A DNA stretch of 32,825 bases, from positions 1-32,825 of the IMG/VR virus record IMGVR_UViG_3300021420_000096. One strand, given 5' to 3'. The DNA comes from a virus. Each line of letters begins with the position of its first letter. Positions within the stretch are counted from its first letter, which is position 1. Position numbers and translations under genes: made by a program. The notes under the pieces were generated by a model. That model saw only the letters and a list, made by a program, of their open reading frames with translations. It was not told the origin of the DNA and searched no databases. Shown in pieces: positions 2,229 to 19,635 of this stretch.

Positions 2229-2912
2229 ATGGTTGATCTGGCTGCTCTCAAGGAAGCCAACGCGAAACGCTGGGAAACCGCGAAGACAACGCGGAACTTC
2301 CTCAGCGTCGCGCAAGCGCTCGTGCGCAATGACGCCAAGCCCCGCTACCTCGCCGTATCCAGAACGACCGGCATTCCCTGGTTCTTCATCGCCGTGGTGC
2401 ACGAACGAGAAAGTTCGCAGAGCTGGACTGCGAGCCTGGCGCAGGGCGACCCGTGGAACGAGGTCTCGCGGCATGTGCCGGCAGGCCGTGGACCGTTCAA
2501 TTCATGGGAGGAAGCCGCGGTTGATGCTCTGGTCAACTGTCCACCATTTGCGGTTCGCAATAAGGACTGGTCGGTTGGCGGCTTGCTCACGCTGCTGGAG
2601 CAGTACAACGGGCTTGGCTATGCCGAGCGTGGGGTGCCATCGCCATATGTTTGGTCTGGCACAAATCAGTACGTCAGCGGCAAGTACATCCGCGATGGCG
2701 TCTATAGCGAAACCGCGATCGATGCCCAGCTCGGCTGCGCCGGCCTGATCCTCGGCATGATGCGGCTCGATCGCACGATCTCGTTTGGAGCGCCGCTCAC
2801 GGTGCCGCCGGTCGTCGCCACGCCTTCGATCGCCAAGCCGGCCAAGGGCTCGATCGGCGCCGCCATCGCCTCGCTGGTCTCCGCATTCCTCGCACTCTTC
2901 AAAAGGAAATAA
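2229..2912 (+). CDS. Endolysin, lysozyme-superfamily (COG5526-like), with C-terminal hydrophobic tail
   Basis: Predicted peptidoglycan hydrolase of 227 residues for host lysis. The segment VVHERESSQSW (about residues 56-66) fits the catalytic-Glu region of lysozyme-like phage enzymes. It is followed by the family signatures LAQGDPWNEVS, VPAGRGPF, SWEEAAVDAL, YNGLGY and SPYVWSG. No N-terminal signal peptide is seen. The last 25 residues form a Pro/Lys linker and a hydrophobic helix ending in FKRK, so the enzyme may associate with membrane. It is followed after 2 nt by small membrane proteins, which makes a standard lysis cassette. The family assignment is from motif memory; substrate specificity is unknown. 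Confidence 0.85.
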   Translation: MVDLAALKEANAKRWETAKTTRNFLSVAQALVRNDAKPRYLAVSRTTGIPWFFIAVVHERESSQSWTASLAQGDPWNEVSRHVPAGRGPFNSWEEAAVDALVNCPPFAVRNKDWSVGGLLTLLEQYNGLGYAERGVPSPYVWSGTNQYVSGKYIRDGVYSETAIDAQLGCAGLILGMMRLDRTISFGAPLTVPPVVATPSIAKPAKGSIGAAIASLVSAFLALFKRK

Positions 2913-2914
2913 CC

Positions 2915-3283
2915 ATGCGCTTTCTGTTCTTTGCCATCCTGATCATTCCCGGGCTCGCGTGTGCCTATTTTTTCTGGGTGCGGCCGGTGCTCGAAGCTGT
3001 GCCGGCACTCAAGAAGTTCTATGCCGAAGCGGACGGGTTCTGGAACAAAGTGTGGGCCTTGTGCGGGAAGTCCGCGACCTTGGCGTGGTCCTACATTCTC
3101 GCCGGCATCGGCATGGCCATGCAGATGCTGGACCCGGTCGCGTCGACCTTGGGCGACCCTAACCTCAGTGCGCAGATCACCAGCACGCTGCAGTCCGACC
3201 CGAAAATCCTCGGCTATTTTGCGATAGCGGTTTCCGCGATCACCATCGCGGCGCGGCTGCGCACGATCAAGACGGCTGGATAA
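2915..3283 (+). CDS. Small phage membrane protein, possible holin
   Basis: A 122-residue protein with AAGGA 8 nt before the ATG. The N-terminus is a strong hydrophobic helix (FLFFAILIIPGLACAYFFW). A second hydrophobic segment lies at about residues 55-72, and a third near the C-terminus (LGYFAIAVSAITIAARL). It sits between the lysozyme and a better holin candidate. Two or three membrane helices and the location fit a holin or antiholin, but no signature residues prove it. An alternative is a membrane-anchored virion accessory protein. Confidence 0.8.
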   Translation: MRFLFFAILIIPGLACAYFFWVRPVLEAVPALKKFYAEADGFWNKVWALCGKSATLAWSYILAGIGMAMQMLDPVASTLGDPNLSAQITSTLQSDPKILGYFAIAVSAITIAARLRTIKTAG

Positions 3284-3674: not shown

Positions 3675-3973
3675 GCGGCAATTGGGATTTCCTGATCGGG
3701 ATTGCCGTGCAGACGCTGCTTTTCCTGGCCGGCTGTTACGGAATGGTGCTGCGTAACGATTGGAGTACCCGATCCTTGAAGGAGCAATTGGAAGGAATGC
3801 AGGCCGAGCTGAAGAAGCTCGCGGAGGTCATCACCATGCAGGCCGTGCAGACCACACGGATCGACAACCTCAATAGCCAGATGACCACGGTTCAACGTGA
3901 GCTGTCGGACCTTCGCCGCGGCAACGGATGGATTCTCCGTAGTCGCGGTGACGTCGAGGGAGAGTACCCGTGA
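3671..3973 (+). CDS. N-anchored coiled-coil lysis-cassette protein, possible spanin-like or holin regulator
   Basis: A 100-residue protein whose ATG overlaps the previous stop. An N-terminal membrane helix (FLIGIAVQTLLFLAGCYGMVL) is followed by about 55 residues of heptad-type coiled coil (EQLEGMQAELKKLAEV, then LNSQMTTVQRELSDL). The C-terminus is short and basic. This layout of an inner-membrane anchor plus periplasmic coiled coil matches inner-membrane spanins, and also XhlA-type proteins. The next gene encodes a tiny secreted protein, as expected for an outer partner, but that protein has no lipobox, so the spanin reading is tentative. Confidence 0.75.
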   Translation: MSGNWDFLIGIAVQTLLFLAGCYGMVLRNDWSTRSLKEQLEGMQAELKKLAEVITMQAVQTTRIDNLNSQMTTVQRELSDLRRGNGWILRSRGDVEGEYP

Positions 3974-4134
3974 TCCGTCTTGCGATCATCATGCTCTTCG
4001 TGTTTTTCTCGCCCGCCGTGGCGCAGGACAACAACCCGTTTTCCGGAGCGCGATGGTTCAAGATTGAACTGCACAAGGTAAAGCATGATCCGCATCGCCA
4101 TCGTCCTCACGTTCATCCTGCTCGCCCACGATGA
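3970..4134 (+). CDS. Small secreted protein overlapping its neighbours
   Basis: A 54-residue frame starting at a GTG that overlaps the previous stop (GTGA). It encodes a clear signal peptide (MIRLAIIMLFVFFSPAVAQD, cleavage likely after AVA). The mature part is His/Arg-rich because its last 50 nt are read in a different frame from the start of the next gene. No cysteine for lipid attachment is present. The coupled start and signal peptide argue that it is real. A secreted accessory lysis protein is the best guess. Confidence 0.6.
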   Translation: MIRLAIIMLFVFFSPAVAQDNNPFSGARWFKIELHKVKHDPHRHRPHVHPARPR

Positions 4135-4435
4135 CGGTCGGTATGCCAACTCGCCGCTGAAACCATGGTTCGACCAGCTCAGATCGGGCAGGGGACCGTG
4201 CTGCTCGCAAGCCGATGGCTATGTCGTCGCTGATCCAGATTGGGAAAGCCGGGACGGGCATTACCGGGTCCGCGTCCCGAACAAGGCGCTACCCGGCGAG
4301 CCGTTAGAGTGGGTTGACGTGCCCGATGATGCCATCATCACCGGGCCGAACAAGGCTGGTCGCACCATGGTGTGGCCTGTCTATACCTACCTTGGTGCGA
4401 GCATCCGTTGTTTCATGCCGGGACCTATGACCTAA
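4085..4435 (+). CDS. Secreted conserved phage protein of unknown function
   Basis: A 116-residue protein beginning MIRIAIVLTFILLAHDDGRY, a signal peptide or signal anchor. The mature part contains the pair CC (GPCCSQADGY), a WVDVPDDAI motif and a later Cys (IRCFMPG). It looks like small exported proteins found next to rhizobial phage lysis genes. The first six residues resemble those of the preceding overlapping gene (MIRLAI versus MIRIAI). The stop overlaps the stop of the convergent minus-strand gene by 4 nt. No catalytic function is inferred. Confidence 0.75.
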   Translation: MIRIAIVLTFILLAHDDGRYANSPLKPWFDQLRSGRGPCCSQADGYVVADPDWESRDGHYRVRVPNKALPGEPLEWVDVPDDAIITGPNKAGRTMVWPVYTYLGASIRCFMPGPMT

Positions 4436-4827
4436 CCGTTCCGGATAGCTTCCAGCGCGGCTCTTCCGGTCAGTGGCATTTTCTTAAGATCACCCGCCTT
4501 CTTCGCCTTCATCTTATCGATGCGACCGCGCGCCTTCTTCTTTTTGATCTCCTCTTGTTCGGCCTTGATCTCTTGCGCGACCGGATCAGGTGTCTTGTCT
4601 CTCCGCAGGAACGACGGGATGCCGGTATCGATTGGAGGTGCAGCGATAACCGGGGCCGGCTTGGGCTGATCGACGATTTCGATCTCGGTGAAGAGTCGAA
4701 GCGTCGCCTTCTCTATCCGGCTACGTTGCTTTTCGAGCTTGTCCACCATCCGCACCGCGCGAGTTAGTCTTGATCGCCAGCGCTTCAATGCTGCATTGAC
4801 GTGCTCAATGGTTGGCTTCTTAGCCAT
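4432..4827 (-). CDS. Highly charged coiled-coil protein of unknown function
   Basis: A 131-residue Lys/Glu-rich protein. Residues about 10-50 look like a basic coiled coil (KRWRSRLTRAVRMVDKLEK). A Pro-rich linker follows (PKPAPVIAAPPID), then a lysine-rich helix (EEIKKKKARGRIDKMKAKK). A good ribosome-binding site (GGAGAAC) precedes the ATG at 4827. The gene is convergent with the lysis cassette and may form its own unit, with an extended -10 promoter in the gap upstream. It could bind DNA or RNA through the basic helices, but that is speculative. Confidence 0.7.
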   Translation of the reverse strand: MAKKPTIEHVNAALKRWRSRLTRAVRMVDKLEKQRSRIEKATLRLFTEIEIVDQPKPAPVIAAPPIDTGIPSFLRRDKTPDPVAQEIKAEQEEIKKKKARGRIDKMKAKKAGDLKKMPLTGRAALEAIRNG

Positions 4828-6824: not shown

Positions 6825-7133
6825 TCATGTCGGGTCGAAATACTGGATGGTGTAACGCGAGCCGCGGTTCCTGGTGGGGCAGGCGATCTTCTGCCCGACC
6901 GACACCAACTTCTGGTTGGCCGATCTGATCGTGCAGTAAATCGAGGTGTCGGCTGACGGTGGCCCACCGTCTATGCGATCGGCGTAGGCGCGGTCGATCA
7001 GGGTCCGACCATCAATGCCGTACTTGGCCTTGCGCACGATCTCCCATAGCCGCCGCTCCAGTGGCGACAGGTAGACCCCGGGCGGCTCTTCCTCATATTC
7101 GCCAGTGCCGTTGCAGGTAGGACATTTCAACAT
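6825..7133 (-). CDS. Small protein with N-terminal CxxC zinc motif and possible winged helix
   Basis: A 102-residue protein beginning MLKCPTCNGTGEYEEE, a DnaJ-like CxxCxGTG half-motif. The rest (LSPLERRLWEIVRKAKYGIDGRTLIDRAYAD, then SADTSIYCTIRSANQKL and a C-terminal strand) looks like a winged-helix DNA-binding fold. No function is assigned. Its start lies just after a pentamer array that would be in its 5' untranslated RNA. No clear Shine-Dalgarno is present between array and ATG. Confidence 0.7.
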   Translation of the reverse strand: MLKCPTCNGTGEYEEEPPGVYLSPLERRLWEIVRKAKYGIDGRTLIDRAYADRIDGGPPSADTSIYCTIRSANQKLVSVGQKIACPTRNRGSRYTIQYFDPT

Positions 7134-7142
7134 TGAAGGTCT

Positions 7143-7202
7143 CGTGGCGTGGCGTGCTATGTCGTGGCGTGCTGTGCCGTGGTGTGGTGTGCAGTGCTGT
7201 GG
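7143..7202 (-). repeat. Pentanucleotide array 1 (12 units, CACNN on the minus strand)
   Basis: Twelve phase-locked 5-nt units. On the plus strand each is NGTGN (one is NATGN); on the minus strand they read CACNN. The array fills the space between two minus-strand genes (stop of the RuvC-like gene at 7206, start at 7133). The CAC face is therefore on the mRNA-like strand. Same unit as the arrays at 15301, 16030, 16574, 17198 and 19431, but inverted. Confidence 0.9.
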
Positions 7203-7205
7203 CGT

Positions 7206-7730
7206 TTATGCGCTGGCGCGGAACAACGGTGCCGGTGCCCTCGCAAGCTTCGGCTCGATCAGCGAGCACATGTAGTGCCAGGTGGCGAGGGCATCTGCCT
7301 CATTGTCGTCGGTGACATCCCAGCCCAGGCGCTGGCATTGCTTCACCACCATGGGCTTGGCCGTCTCGCGCTTCGGGTTGCAGCCGATGAAATGCAGCCG
7401 CACGTCCTTGGTATCCGCCTTGCGGAGATCGTAGATGCCGCGCTTGTAGGCCGCAGCCCCGATAACGGCAGGCAAACCGTACAACAGCGTAGTAGTGTTA
7501 ACAGTCGTCTTGCCGCGCCTAAACGAGGTCGCCAGCGGCGCTTCCCAGATCACGATCCTCGGCGCGTGGAAGATGCATTTCGCCGTCATCCACTCCAGCG
7601 CCTTGGCAAAGGTCGCCTCGTGCGAGGACGCGCCGAACTTCACGGACCCGTGCAGCGGCGCGCTGCCGGGCTTGCCGATCGCCCAGCCGGTGGTGGTCGC
7701 CAGATCGAGGGCCATGATGGTGACGGTCAT
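7206..7730 (-). CDS. RuvC-like Holliday-junction resolvase (phage type)
   Basis: A 174-residue RNase H-fold nuclease. Motifs are in order: ALDLATTTGWAIG (first Asp), VIWEAP (Glu), and DDNEADALATWHY (paired acids near the C-terminus). This matches phage RuvC-like resolvases of similar length. It would cut branched recombination or replication intermediates before packaging. It is coupled to a second nuclease-like gene (4-nt overlap at 7727-7730). Its downstream gap is a pentamer array. Confidence 0.85.
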   Translation of the reverse strand: MTVTIMALDLATTTGWAIGKPGSAPLHGSVKFGASSHEATFAKALEWMTAKCIFHAPRIVIWEAPLATSFRRGKTTVNTTTLLYGLPAVIGAAAYKRGIYDLRKADTKDVRLHFIGCNPKRETAKPMVVKQCQRLGWDVTDDNEADALATWHYMCSLIEPKLARAPAPLFRASA

Positions 7731-8601: not shown

Positions 8602-8821
8602 GGCTGGATTCCTTCGGGTAAATATCAGGACGAATGAAGTACCGAGGGAGGCCGATGACGCGCTCTACCGCGAGTACGCGGAGCGGTGGCACCTTGTGCC
8701 ACATTCGGACCGCTGCCGGCGTGACGCCGCATTCCGCAGCGACGGCATTCCAGAGTCTGTACATGCTGATGTGGCGCATGGTGGCATCCCAAGGCGGTTT
8801 TAGAGCAGCGGGCGTTCCCAA
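8564..8821 (-). CDS. Cro/YdaS-like DNA-binding regulator
   Basis: An 85-residue protein. AECGVTPAAVRMWHKVPPLRVLAVERVIGLPRYFIRPDIYP is the YdaS/Cro-type helix-turn-helix with its typical RPDIYP end. I favour a TTG start at 8821 because a perfect GGAGGT lies 8 nt upstream; the ATG at 8779 has only a weak GGGA. It is the first gene of the minus-strand block and is divergent from the ERF operon. It likely controls the 8822-9011 intergenic switch region. Confidence 0.75.
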   Translation of the reverse strand: MGTPAALKPPWDATMRHISMYRLWNAVAAECGVTPAAVRMWHKVPPLRVLAVERVIGLPRYFIRPDIYPKESSRGPQSERSHQHA

Positions 8822-15302: not shown

Positions 15303-15450
15303 CAACACTGCACGGCACGTTACGCCACCACACAACACGGCGCGGCACACTACTACACAACACAACACTGCACGGCCCAACACAGCACGTTACTGCACCC
15401 CACGGCCCATCACAACCCTGCACGACACACCGCTGCACATCACACCACTG
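15301..15450 (+). repeat. Pentanucleotide array 2 (30 units of CACNN)
   Basis: Thirty consecutive 5-nt units with no insertion or deletion. Position 3 is C in all 30, position 1 is C in 26, position 2 is A in 25, while positions 4-5 vary freely (TG, GG, GT, AA, AC, CC and others). The array begins at the stop codon of the HTH gene and ends 12 nt before the next ATG, where GGAGCATAGGAAA supplies the ribosome-binding site. It contains no plus-strand stop in any frame. Confidence 0.95.
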
Positions 15451-15462
15451 GAGCATAGGAAA

Positions 15463-16026
15463 ATGTACCGAGCTACTGTTACGATCAGAGGAACCGCGCC
15501 GCTCTCGCAGTCGCGCCAGCACTTCACCGATAAACTCGACGGCGAAACCGAGAGTGAGTACGATCTGCGCTGCTGGCGCGAGAAGTGCAACTATGACGAG
15601 GACGGCGTTGTCTTTGTCCCGGCCATGGCCTTCAAGCAGGCGATGGACACCGCGGCCAAGCGGCTGAACATCAAGGACTCCGACAACAAGCGCGCCACCC
15701 TGACCAAGTATTTCGTCAGCGACGTGGTCTGCGAGGCGAACTTGTCGATCGGCGTCCACAAGGACGAGATGCCCTGCATCAGGATTTCGGCCAATGTCGA
15801 TGGCGTGCGCGGATCGGGAAAGCGCGTGCCGCGCACGTTTCCGCAGATTCAGGAATGGGGCGGCACCACCACCTTCTTCATCATGGACGATAAGGTGTCG
15901 CACGAGATGTTCGAGAAAGTGCTCGGCGTCGCGGCAAGGTCGGTCGGCGTCGGGCAGTTCAGGCCCGAGAAGGGCGGCCTCAACGGGCGCTTCGAGGTCT
16001 TGAAGGTCAAGTACGAAAAGGTTTGA
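15463..16026 (+). CDS. Conserved phage protein, possibly RAMP/Cas7-like nucleic-acid binding fold
   Basis: A 187-residue protein, single domain. Visible segments: RGTAPLSQSRQH near residue 9, ESEYDLRCWREKCNYDEDG, VVFVPAMAFKQAMDTAAK, then a late glycine-rich VGVGQFRPEKGGLNGRFEV. The order (strand, acidic-basic helix, VFxPxxAF, and C-terminal G-x-FRPxxGGxxGRF loop) recalls Cas7-type RAMP proteins, but this is a by-eye resemblance. The gene is bracketed by pentamer arrays 2 and 3. It may be a single-strand-binding protein; a structural comparison would decide. Confidence 0.7.
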   Translation: MYRATVTIRGTAPLSQSRQHFTDKLDGETESEYDLRCWREKCNYDEDGVVFVPAMAFKQAMDTAAKRLNIKDSDNKRATLTKYFVSDVVCEANLSIGVHKDEMPCIRISANVDGVRGSGKRVPRTFPQIQEWGGTTTFFIMDDKVSHEMFEKVLGVAARSVGVGQFRPEKGGLNGRFEVLKVKYEKV

Positions 16027-16029
16027 CGC

Positions 16030-16084
16030 CACGACACTTCACGCCACAACACATCGCTACACCTCGCCTCACGGCACAACACAG
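16030..16084 (+). repeat. Pentanucleotide array 3 (11 units of CACNN)
   Basis: Eleven phase-locked units beginning 4 nt after the stop at 16026 and ending 11 nt before ATG 16096. Position 3 is C in all 11; two units are CGCNN. The array makes up nearly the entire intergenic gap. Confidence 0.93.
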
Positions 16085-16095
16085 GACAATGCCCG

Positions 16096-16569
16096 ATGCC
16101 CCTTACCTTCGATCGTTCGCCTGACACCGCCGACGTCATCGCGGCGCTGCGCGGCGTCAATGGCGAGATCAGCTACAAAGACCTGGCCAAGCAAGCCGGC
16201 GTATCAATCCCGCGCCTCAAGCAGGTGCTGCCTTCGGCACGCCGCGTGCTGTTCGCCGAGAATGAGATTCTATTCGGTTGCGTTTGGGGCCAAGGTCTTA
16301 GGCGCATGACCGACCAGGATAAGGTCCGCAAGCCCGAGGCATTCAAGAAGCGCGTGTTCCGCGGCGCCGGCCGCGAGCTGAAGCATCTCGAAAGCATCGA
16401 TCTCGGCCGGCTGTCGAAATCCGACCAGCACATCACCACCACCAACCGCACGATCCTGGAGTTGATGCGGCGAGAGGCGCAGGTCAAGACCGAGGCGCCT
16501 GCTCCAATGCAGACCGCTCCGAAACCGCTCCCGAATATGGGCCGTCTGGTTCCGAAGCGGTCCAGCTAA
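16096..16569 (+). CDS. Protein with N-terminal winged-helix-like segment, function unknown
   Basis: A 157-residue protein. The first 75 residues (DVIAALRGVNGEISYKDLAKQAGVSIPRLKQVLPSARRVLFAENEILFGC) look like a winged HTH. A basic middle (KKRVFRGAGRELKHLESIDL) and Pro-rich C-terminus follow. CAGGACAATGCCCG before the ATG gives a modest ribosome-binding site. It is flanked by pentamer arrays on both sides. Regulator is plausible; no family is recognised. Confidence 0.7.
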   Translation: MPLTFDRSPDTADVIAALRGVNGEISYKDLAKQAGVSIPRLKQVLPSARRVLFAENEILFGCVWGQGLRRMTDQDKVRKPEAFKKRVFRGAGRELKHLESIDLGRLSKSDQHITTTNRTILELMRREAQVKTEAPAPMQTAPKPLPNMGRLVPKRSS

Positions 16570-16573
16570 TCGT

Positions 16574-16836
16574 CACCTGACTACACCGCACCTCATAGCA
16601 CTACACCCCACGCCACTTCACAGCATCTCACGACGCCCCACGTCACAACACGCCGCAACGCAACACAACACGCTACGTTACGTCATGCCGCCACACCTCA
16701 CGACCCAGCACGTCACCCCGCTTCACACCACGACACGACAGCAGCGCAACCGTTTTCACACCACACCACGACACGACTCGGCACAACACAACCCTCCGCA
16801 CCACGGCACGCCCCGTCACGTCACGCCACATCACCC
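16574..16836 (+). repeat. Pentanucleotide array 4 (33 + 16 units of CACNN)
   Basis: The longest gap-filling array, between convergent genes. Units run in one register from 16574 to 16738 (33 units, position 3 C in 30 and T in 3). An 18-nt interruption (16739-16756) shifts the phase, and a second run covers 16757-16836 (16 units, position 3 C in all). The last units overlap the stop codon of the minus-strand gene ending at 16821. Histidine/threonine-rich plus-strand frames across it are by-products of the repeat. Confidence 0.93.
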
Positions 16837-17123
16837 GCGCGCTGGCGGTTCGCGATCCTGGTCTTCATTTCCCGCGCCGCGTCGATGCCGCGTTTGCAGG
16901 CGGCGAGAAGTTCGGCGGTCGACCTTTCCAGCTCGGCGAACGTGGGCGCAGTGTTCGCGAACGTGGGCCGAACGTTCGCGAACGTTTTAGGTTTTTCAAC
17001 AGGTTGGTCCGATTTGAGTGCCGATTTGTTCTTTTGGCGTTGCCGGAATGCGCGACCGCGTTCGGCCGACGTTAGCGGGCGCTTGACCGGCGCCGGATGT
17101 AGCGTAACGATGTTCTCAGCCAT
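16821..17123 (-). CDS. Basic phage protein with short TFAN repeats
   Basis: A 100-residue protein starting MAENIVTLHPAPVKRPLTSA, an N-terminus with an AERGRAFRQRQKNK basic region typical of small rhizobial phage proteins. The middle has repeats FANVRPTFANTAPTFAELE, coded by near-palindromic DNA (AACGTTCGCGAACGTT at 16971-16986). The C-terminus is helical. The final codons (D-V-A-stop) lie within pentamer array 4. AACGGGAGA precedes the ATG. Confidence 0.65.
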   Translation of the reverse strand: MAENIVTLHPAPVKRPLTSAERGRAFRQRQKNKSALKSDQPVEKPKTFANVRPTFANTAPTFAELERSTAELLAACKRGIDAAREMKTRIANRQRAGDVA

Positions 17124-17197: not shown

Positions 17198-17257
17198 CAC
17201 GACACTACACTACGCTTCACGGCACGACGCGGCACGCCACTTCACGCCACATCACGC
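17198..17257 (+). repeat. Pentanucleotide array 5 (12 units of CACNN)
   Basis: Twelve units, position 3 C in all 12. It overlaps the 3' end of the integrase gene by 16 nt and supplies its last codons and stop. The 14-mer TCACGCCACATCAC at 17242-17255 is identical to 16821-16834, where it also forms the stop of a minus-strand gene. Here the CAC face is antisense to both flanking genes. Confidence 0.92.
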
Positions 17258-18492
17258 TTATCGAGACGCACCACGTTGTCACCGACCATGGTGTCGATCC
17301 GGTCCGACCAATGCTGCATCAGCCGCGCGCGTGCAGCAAACAACGATAGCGGACCGGTCCTGTTGTAGATCGACTTGACCGATGACTCGTCCAAATGGGC
17401 GAGTTGTAGCTCGATCACGTCGGCATCCCAGCGCTTGTTCTCCTCGGCGTCGACCTCGGCATTGAGCAACGTCGAGAACGTGGTCCTAAAACCGTGTGCA
17501 CAATGCTGGCTGGCGGTATCGAAGCCGAGATGACGCAGCCGCCGGCATAGTGCCATGTCGGAGATCGGCTGATCCTTGGTCGCAGAGAACACGTATTGGC
17601 GCTGGCCGGTGATCCGCTTGACTTCCTCCAAGAGGGCAAGAGCCTGGCGCGACAGCGGAACGACATGCTCCTTGTCCATCTTCATTTTCTCGGCAGAAAT
17701 GGTCCACCGCGCCAGCGTGAAGTCAAAGTCCCCCCACTCGGCGCTAGCGATCTCGCCCGGACGCACCACGGTCAGGCTGATGAACCGCAGCGCGTACCCG
17801 ACGATATCGCGATAGCGTCCGCGCTCGAATGGCACGGCCATTTTCTGGAACAGCCCCATTACATCCTTTTCCCGGGTCAGCGCCGGCCGTGGCGTGGAGT
17901 TGTTATCGATGAGCTGCGCGCCGAGATTACGGAATGGATTGACCATGGTGCCGTCGAGATCGGCATAGTCGAAAATCTTCTCGCCGGCCGATCGCACCCG
18001 ATCGCGGTTTTCAAGGGTACCCTCGGTCTCAAATTCCCGCAGGTACACGATGACATCGCTGCGCTTGACCTCCGACAAGGGCTTAGTGCCGAACTCCTCT
18101 TTCAGGTAGTCGACGAACCGCTGCTTGCCGACAATGGTGCGCTCACTGAGCGGCGGCTGCAGGTTTTTCTGCTTCTCCATCCATTCATCAGCCCACTCGG
18201 CGAAAGGGCGGAGGGCAGCCTCCGTGCGCTTGGCCTCCGCCTTAGCCGCGGCGGGATCGATGCCGTTGGCGAGCAGCCGTTTGGCATCGTCGCGCTTCTT
18301 GCGGGCATCAAGCAGGCCGATCGCGGGATAGGGGCCGATGTTCAGTTCCTTCTGCTTGCCCTGAAAGCGATAGGCCAGCCGCCAGATTTTGGCCCCGGTG
18401 GTGGTGACGAACAGGAACAGGCCTTCGGCATCGGAGACTTTATAGGCCTTGTCCCGCCGCTTCAGGGCCTCAATGGTTTTGACGTTCAACAT
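17242..18492 (-). CDS. int: Tyrosine-recombinase integrase (DUF4102/P4-like)
   Basis: A 416-residue phage integrase. The N-terminal DUF4102 arm-binding domain (KAYKVSDAEGLFLFVTTTG, KIWRLAYRFQGKQKELNIGPYP) is followed by a core-binding domain and the catalytic domain. Catalytic segments: VVRPGEIASAEW (Arg), HCAHGFRTTFSTLLN (HxxR), QLAHLDESSVKSIYNRTG (His and the nucleophilic Tyr). All are intact. I chose ATG 18492 (MLNVKTIEALK) because GAGAGG lies 5 nt upstream; a start at 18540 would add non-family residues. It should integrate at a tRNA 3' end, matching the att core found upstream. Confidence 0.95.
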   Translation of the reverse strand: MLNVKTIEALKRRDKAYKVSDAEGLFLFVTTTGAKIWRLAYRFQGKQKELNIGPYPAIGLLDARKKRDDAKRLLANGIDPAAAKAEAKRTEAALRPFAEWADEWMEKQKNLQPPLSERTIVGKQRFVDYLKEEFGTKPLSEVKRSDVIVYLREFETEGTLENRDRVRSAGEKIFDYADLDGTMVNPFRNLGAQLIDNNSTPRPALTREKDVMGLFQKMAVPFERGRYRDIVGYALRFISLTVVRPGEIASAEWGDFDFTLARWTISAEKMKMDKEHVVPLSRQALALLEEVKRITGQRQYVFSATKDQPISDMALCRRLRHLGFDTASQHCAHGFRTTFSTLLNAEVDAEENKRWDADVIELQLAHLDESSVKSIYNRTGPLSLFAARARLMQHWSDRIDTMVGDNVVRLDKRDVA

Positions 18493-18511
18493 GGTGTCCT
18501 CTCGGGTTACG

Positions 18512-18773
18512 ATCCCAACCGATCCCAACAAGAATCCCAACAGAATTTCCCGTCAGTGGCAAACATCGGCCGGCATCAACAGACACCATCATATGCAGAA
18601 GTGCCCGGTTTACAAGGCTAACTTTGATGTTGTTGGGATGGTAACCGACACGGCCCGACATGGTCAGAAAGGGCACTTGGCTCCCCGGGCTGGAGTCGAA
18701 ATAACGACCTAACCGCTGGTTCTGCTTATGTTTTCCGGGTCGGCTTTTCGATGGTCCCAACCAAAATCCCAAC
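18512..18773. promoter_or_regulatory. attP: attP region with integrase arm-type repeats
   Basis: ATCCCAAC/GTTGGGAT octamers flank the tRNA-like core: 18512, 18522 and 18534 (minus sense), 18632 (plus sense), 18754 (one mismatch) and 18766 (minus sense). Pairs 12 bp apart form a repeated module GTTGGGATTNNNGTTGGGAY, at 18522-18541 and 18754-18773. Positions on both sides of the core fit P and P' arm sites bound by the DUF4102 domain. No protein-coding gene is seen between 18493 and 18913. Confidence 0.75.
18678..18700 (-). other. Candidate attP core: tRNA 3'-end identity segment
   Basis: On the minus strand this reads TTCGACT (T-loop), CCAGC (T-stem 3' strand), CCGGGGA (acceptor 3' strand), G, CCA. 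The segment fits exactly the 3' end of a tRNA with acceptor 5' strand TCCCCGG. Weaker similarity (GGTCGTTA) continues upstream, reminiscent of a tRNA-Asn 3' half from memory. The rest of a tRNA is absent, so it is an att identity block and not a gene. Confidence 0.75.
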
Positions 18774-19430: not shown

Positions 19431-19635
19431 CACTACATCGCACGGCACATCATCGCACCTCACAACATCTCATGCCACTCGACGGCACACCACACTACGG
19501 CACGGCACGCTACGGCACGGCACAAGACGGTCCACCACAACACCACGCAACACACCCCGACACGGCACAGCACTCCACGACGCGGCACGACACAGCGCCA
19601 CACAGCACACTACTTTGCGCCACACCACACCACAT
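19431..19635 (+). repeat. Pentanucleotide array 6 (41 units of CACNN)
   Basis: The longest unbroken array: 41 units with no register change over 205 nt. Position 3 is C in 37 and T in 4. A further TACTT TGCGC pair near the end is still in phase. It ends about 30 nt before ATG 19666. Confidence 0.95.

Follow-up and report, generated by a model that had tools for sequence, protein, structure and literature searches.

Related systems and the locus studied

Viral Interference Programmable Repeat (VIPR) has been described in a 2026 preprint, for phage SUSP1 and for a prophage of P. fulva, as a weapon of phages against rival phages (PMC13142463 / bioRxiv 2026.04.26.720920). As far as the main text of the preprint goes, the system combines a phage RAMP protein of about 20 kD, Vipr, with guide RNAs (vrRNAs) of 9–16 YNNGG pentamers, and these pentamer RNAs were sequenced and co-purified; the NN pairs read double-stranded DNA with one base skipped per step, and VIPR is a proposed ancestor of class 1 CRISPR and, among guide systems, the first for which non-contiguous reading of DNA has been reported (PMC13142463). 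Its further features are long intergenic stretches on either side of vipr, an accessory (vap) gene next to it and an invariable 3′ tail behind the repeats. Here we analyzed a virus record of 32,825 nucleotides (IMG/VR record IMGVR_UViG_3300021420_000096, positions 1 to 32,825; the window, meaning this whole stretch), in which arrays of tandem CACNN pentamers fill the intergenic gaps on both sides of a plus-strand gene at 15463–16026, and in which one further array, at 7144–7203, is inverted and lies in a minus-strand operon. The CACNN arrays are very probably guide-RNA genes (vrRNAs) of a VIPR-type system whose effector Vipr is the product of 15463–16026, and the inverted array is most likely a guide RNA of the same CAC-scaffold system, with its effector 8 kb away.

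The likeness to VIPR, as the main text of the preprint presents it, comprises a phage-borne RAMP protein of about 190 amino acids from the same family, tandem pentamers in intergenic gaps that combine a constant triplet with a hypervariable NN, a putative accessory gene adjoining vipr and phage-type gene targets with a 1-nt skip, the last of these seen here by sequence in a sister locus from Paracoccus litorisediminis (NZ_WMIG01000026; L206). Array length is also similar, with 11–12 units in the window arrays starting at 7144, 16030 and 17198 compared to 9–16 per published vrRNA. On the other hand, the triplet is CAC in the window and CGC in its sisters, whereas the published one is GGY, the glycine loop of the protein carries Q in the window and R in the sisters but D in SUSP1, and one window array is located 8 kb from vipr in an operon of opposite direction. 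The main text of the preprint speaks of GGY/NN "or a related consensus" (fig. S17) and names neither CAC nor CGC (PMC13142463); judging from its reference to that figure, the CAC and CGC scaffolds may already be known to its authors.

Two other systems are worth comparing. Class 1 CRISPR-Cas (type VII Cas7, type III Csm3) has the RAMP fold, an expected filament on the guide RNA and a fixed nucleotide step in common with the window locus, but, within the scans given below, the window has neither a cas operon nor a repeat-spacer array, pentamers take the place of spacers and the guide information is non-contiguous. A tandem-repeat scan of the window revealed no CRISPR-like repeat family, and among ten proteins scanned around the arrays there was no match to Cas proteins or to MtrB, the protein of TRAP attenuation. 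TRAP reads RNA triplets spaced by two free bases, just as the arrays have two free bases between their triplets; it differs in that its triplet is (G/U)AG instead of CAC, in that the arrays described here also lie downstream of genes and in that their NN carries information.

CACNN arrays of the window

A period-5 scan detected GTG on the plus strand at 11 of the 12 period-5 positions of 7144–7203, which corresponds to CACNN on the minus strand with the NN series AG TG AC AC GG AG GC GA AG GC GC GA. This candidate solo guide RNA, the most regular array of the window, is situated amid the minus-strand genes 7206–7730 and 6825–7133. All remaining arrays read CACNN on the plus strand. The one directly upstream of vipr at 15306–15450 (29 units, 21 exact) probably consists of two guides in a row; 16030–16084 (11 units, nine exact) separates vipr from an accessory-like gene, and a run at 16574–16836 (16574–16653, 16694–16738, 16757–16791 and 16802–16836) follows downstream of the vipr operon. 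Further away, 17198–17257 (12 units, ten exact) is antisense to the integrase gene of this virus record and overlaps its 3′ end, and three arrays at 19431–19610 (19431–19465, 19476–19525 and 19536–19610), found by tandem-repeat and period-5 scans and taken as one feature at 19431–19634, precede a doubtful open reading frame (ORF). Trimers other than CAC/GTG did not exceed six units in register anywhere in the window, and when the window was shuffled 200 times with dinucleotides preserved, runs reached at most five units for CAC/GTG and six for any trimer. A search against Rfam returned nothing reaching the gathering score. A phage contig 99.9% identical to window positions 8739–32825 (L334) runs 5.7 kb beyond the window end and carries, at 2841–2975 (minus strand of that contig), a further pair of CACNN arrays on the strand of vipr.

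These strand assignments bear out what the earlier note had read from the letters of the window, including the two exceptions that it had named: 16574–16836 and 17198–17257 are indeed antisense to the minus-strand genes 16821–17123 and 17242–18540. Its statement that arrays lie just before start codons holds in part. The genes starting at 15463 and 16096 are real by homology, while 19666 starts a 64-aa ORF without family match. Moreover, although sites just before a start codon are frequent, this largely reflects the packing of arrays into intergenic gaps, and arrays are also found directly after genes.

A Vipr homologue and its coupling to the arrays

The gene at 15463–16026 (plus strand) encodes a single-domain RAMP protein of 187 amino acids with Cas7/Csm3 fold (phrog_4652), as indicated by homology, profile and structural model. 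Its AlphaFold2 model has a mean pLDDT of 94.4, and the top matches in the PDB are all RAMP subunits of the Cas7 type (type VII Cas7, Csm3), with Z up to 13.0 over 155–161 residues (Foldseek, VIA-align). Across an alignment of 33 relatives the C-terminal motif G-x-G-[QR]-F-R-P...G-G-x-x-G-R-F is kept; in the window protein the glycine loop reads GVGQFRP, with Q as residue 165. SUSP1 Vipr (KT454805, 28474–29061) is recovered by the family profile at an E value of 8e-32 and, in hhalign, aligns to the profile of the window family with a probability of 97.4 and an E value of 9e-12 over 166 columns. The product of 15463–16026 is thus a homologue of SUSP1 Vipr with RAMP fold. Single-sequence tblastn found no Vipr relatives among the INPHARED phages, and no PADLOC model matches Vipr.

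Arrays and gene were linked from both sides. Scanning viral contigs for seven CACNN units yielded at least 120 loci, which were searched with 28 window proteins. A homologue of 15463–16026 was present in 43 (tblastn) or 44 (profile) of the 120 array-selected loci listed, mostly with E values of 1e-70 to 1e-100; the next-best window gene, 16096–16569, occurred in five of them and the others in one or two. Array loci lacking a vipr homologue consist in part of monotonous repeats such as (CACAG)n. Conversely, in 80 loci selected by the protein, the best period-5 repeat was CGC in 49, CAC in 12 and GGC in five cases, and none or another one in 14, so that, within 1.5 kb of the gene, one of these three triplets ranked first in 66 of the 80. 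Since the array-first and the protein-first searches converge, the arrays belong to the 15463 gene family, and the triplet varies among its members. It is this coupling of the arrays to a Vipr homologue, and to its sense strand, that leads us to conclude that the window very probably carries a VIPR-type locus with a CAC/NN scaffold.

On a proposed model that follows the preprint, the arrays would be transcribed as CAC-containing RNA, and Vipr, a RAMP with a single RRM, would polymerize along it, a subunit for every 5 nt, holding the constant CAC. In the resulting ribonucleoprotein the exposed NN would pair with one strand of the target DNA, each dinucleotide being followed by one unread base (the 1-nt skip), and the bound filament would repress genes of rival phages or prophages. 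By analogy, the CAC arrays of the window would be read like the CGC arrays of L206, and the isolated array 7144–7203 would be an active guide.

Strand orientation of the arrays

The earlier note had argued for action at the RNA level because four arrays, among them the inverted one in the minus-strand operon, have CAC on the predicted mRNA just before a start codon. Six arrays of one window prove nothing about strand, and a larger set was therefore tabulated. Within 1.5 kb of 15463 homologues, after de-duplication, arrays on the sense strand of the gene outnumber those on the opposite strand 116:1 for CAC, 113:0 for CGC and 7:0 for GGC, giving 236:1 in total; in the protein-selected loci the CAC arrays are 44:0 sense. 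The lone exception close to the gene (L081) precedes a gene on the plus strand that has a ribosome-binding site, and it reads in the sense direction of this other gene. Outside the vipr operon, about six arrays are available for comparison. The window array 7144–7203, the one in L081, the pair at 2841–2975 in L334 and the window arrays at 19431–19634 (next to a weak ORF) are concordant with the adjacent gene, and two arrays are not. The strand rule is consequently near-absolute beside vipr, at 236:1, and unproven elsewhere, where the ratio is about 4:2. For the argument of the earlier note this means that the arrays very likely act at the RNA level, because of the near-absolute strand bias and because the partner is an RNA-binding RAMP of a family for which pentamer RNAs were sequenced and co-purified, whereas little weight can be put on the inverted array by itself: at a distance from vipr, arrays are concordant with their neighbors at only about 4:2.

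Strand bias could also arise if the arrays were strand-asymmetric DNA elements, i.e., signals for replication, packaging, partition or recombination that are bound as DNA by a phage protein. All arrays are on one strand in 34 of 37 whole contigs, as is the case for DNA polarity signals, and the window contains a recombination gene set. However, the arrays gather around a single gene family instead of an origin or the terminase, their partner protein has an RNA-binding fold, and both the flipped array of L081 and window array 7144–7203 follow the local transcript. We therefore regard such DNA elements as very improbable.

A second explanation accepts RNA as the site of action and sees the arrays as cis sites, at which Vipr or a TRAP-like ring protein would bind CAC in the leader and control translation of the next gene. 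Array ends are often found 5–60 nt before a start codon with CAC on the mRNA strand, and TRAP offers a precedent for triplets with two free bases between them. Against this, sense arrays are at least as common downstream of the gene as upstream (93 versus 63), successions of arrays that share a constant end resemble guide arrays, and the NN, near-random between phages, can nevertheless be decoded into targets in L206. Such control in cis is accordingly improbable, and we consider it likely that the arrays specify trans-acting guide RNAs.

Guide content and target decoding

Outside the last four units, the entropy of NN amounts to 3.93 (CAC) and 3.92 (CGC) of 4 bits. The last two to three units lean to AA/GA in CAC arrays and to AA in CGC arrays, in the manner of a constant 3′ tail, and in three relatives (L038, L078 and L117) a repeated trailer follows the arrays; in the window arrays such a tail does not stand out clearly. 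Guides are almost never common to different phages, and NN strings common to CAC and CGC guides are no more frequent than in shuffles. Near-maximal entropy also bears on the notion that the arrays are functionless products of simple-sequence slippage. Monotonous CACNN-like repeats, e.g., (CACAG)n, do exist in unrelated contigs, but the units of the arrays are not mutual copies, their association with one gene is overwhelming and their strand ratio is 236:1; we attach next to no probability to slippage.

Targets came into view in the CGC/NN locus L206, which has three guides, A, B and C. Guide B was used as a query of the form NN-x-NN, with one skipped base and 20 fixed bases, against 296 Rhodobacteraceae genomes. 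It gave three exact matches (20/20), two with one mismatch and 11 with two, compared to two matches for the reversed-pattern control; about 0.002 exact matches are expected by chance (2.2e9 positions / 4^20). With a 3-nt skip, guide B retrieved only the array itself and one site with two mismatches. Sites matched exactly or with one mismatch encode D-P-L-[IV]-E-R-V-T-L-V, and at the sites in the fetched loci the skipped base falls on the wobble position. The target gene at these loci, as named from its sequence, is that of the large terminase subunit. This terminase type is found on many short contigs of 10–14 kb (L256–L279), several of them from isolate genomes, which may be satellites or defective prophages.

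Guide C matches 18/20 positions in many genomes, antisense to the segment A-I-Y-T-R-K-S-S-E-E-G of a large serine recombinase, with both mismatches mostly in its one irregular unit. When all guides were compared with everything fetched, guide A matched 21/22 positions in three of the same recombinase genes and 20/22 in four more, at a site 213 nt from that of guide C on the same strand; skips of 0, 2 and 3 gave no match at the recombinase site of guides A and C. Without the code it would be difficult to account for two guides of one locus converging on a single gene, and at the sequence level the 1-nt skip rule therefore holds in this CGC/NN relative of the window system. In that comparison skip 1 had 44 matches in all, against 9, 10 and 15 with skips of 0, 2 and 3, but the database included loci fetched with guide B, which inflates the tally; what we take from it is the coincidence of guides A and C alone. 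The fetched loci alone (2.3 Mb) gave no target signal at any skip length. In another locus (L103), the arrays flanking vipr (3870–4454, minus strand) contain two guides that, across eight units, have 13 of 16 NN bases in common, as though each addressed a variant of a single target site; an L103 guide had no matches in the viral contigs.

The inverted array as an active or an orphan guide

Several observations weigh against our interpretation of the window. In the scans run here, no CAC-scaffold guide of any locus had a convincing target. With eight units of each as query, guides 7144, 16030 and 15306a gave 10, 9 and 5 matches in 2.9 million viral contigs, numbers at the level of chance, and none of these matches extended to further units; in 397 genomes of the order Rhizobiales, guide 7144 matched no more often than the reversed-pattern control. 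Two arrays, 3098–3167 in L052 and 17198–17257 in the window, are antisense to their neighbors, and the putative accessory gene 16096–16569 matches SUSP1 vap1 weakly (probability 49, E value 1.7e-4). In addition, the CAC units of the window are less perfect than those of relatives (21/29 and 12/16), and because of this some window arrays may be decaying.

These points raise the possibility that the system is a VIPR system but that 7144–7203 is an orphan or decaying copy, neither expressed nor loaded, with an accidental orientation. The absence of a target for guide 7144 in the viral contigs and the Rhizobiales genomes would fit, as would its position 8 kb from vipr in another operon and the agreement of only about four in six arrays away from vipr with their neighbors. 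What speaks against such a copy is the regularity of this array, which with 11/12 CAC exceeds all others in the window, a length that fits the reported vrRNAs (9–16 repeats) and its place in an intergenic gap on the strand of the surrounding genes. An orphan copy is unlikely in our view, albeit the most serious of the alternatives, and a guide RNA of the CAC-scaffold VIPR system remains the preferred assignment for 7144–7203.

One of the five matches of guide 15306a lies on a 60-kb contig (L338) from the same metagenome as L126, a phage contig whose overlap with the window shows 99.9% identity. This site is in frame, with the skip at the wobble position (W-G-V-A-Q-K-G-G). As a target it is only a lead, given that units 9–10 mismatch and that no other window guide matches the contig.

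Scaffold triplet and Vipr phylogeny

The scaffold triplet follows the Vipr tree. With the scaffold label (CAC, CGC or GGY) mapped on a tree of 93 Viprs, eight changes were counted, compared to 30.1 with shuffled labels, and none of 200 shuffles was as low. The CAC clade of the window is nested with CGC systems including Paracoccus L206; the clade that unites them has 32 members and an SH-aLRT support of 98%. Residue 165, which follows G-x-G, is Q in 18 CAC-labeled and in none of the CGC-labeled Viprs; it is R in all 41 readable CGC Viprs as well as in 11 CAC and two GGC proteins, and D or E in four SUSP1-like GGY proteins. A sign test of Q165 against scaffold was not significant, with only two to four independent switches. 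Two phages encode two Viprs each with their own arrays, CGC and GGC: L143 (9971–10537 and 14931–15527) and L167 (9989–10552 and 14384–15106). Tentatively, and with the odds somewhat against it, the glycine loop might set orthogonal scaffold alphabets, Q165 reading the A of CAC, R the G of CGC and D/E going with GGY; this would be a one-residue code switch, and L143 and L167 would each run two non-crossing guide systems.

Whatever the role of this residue, CAC/NN and CGC/NN arrays are tied to close relatives of the protein of the GGY system, and the CGC system has natural targets with a 1-nt skip in a terminase and in one recombinase, the latter matched by two guides from a single locus. Should this be confirmed, the scaffold would be a separable, switchable part of the system, providing guide channels that are orthogonal to one another and a way to test directly how RNA bases are read by the RAMP fold. 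The VIPR assignment would also account for a group of unusual pentamer repeats found in uncultured phages.

Neighboring genes in the window

The inverted array is preceded in its operon by a gene for a RuvC-like resolvase (7206–7730, minus strand; phrog_159, E value 1.2e-10). The gene directly after it (6825–7133, minus strand), known from the ORF list and profile scans, encodes a protein with the zinc-knuckle-like N-terminus MLKCPTCNGTGEYEEEP and with very weak matches to anti-TRAP and antitermination Q proteins (E values of about 0.05). On the plus strand, 16096–16569 is a putative vap-like accessory gene that, in profile searches, has weak winged-helix matches; its family is located beside vipr in many relatives. 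The integrase of the window is at most 40% identical to anything found when the host of the phage was sought. Finally, a palindromic repeat, GCGAACGTGGGCCCAACGTTC, is present in 2.4 copies at 16936–16986, inside the minus-strand ORF 16821–17123.
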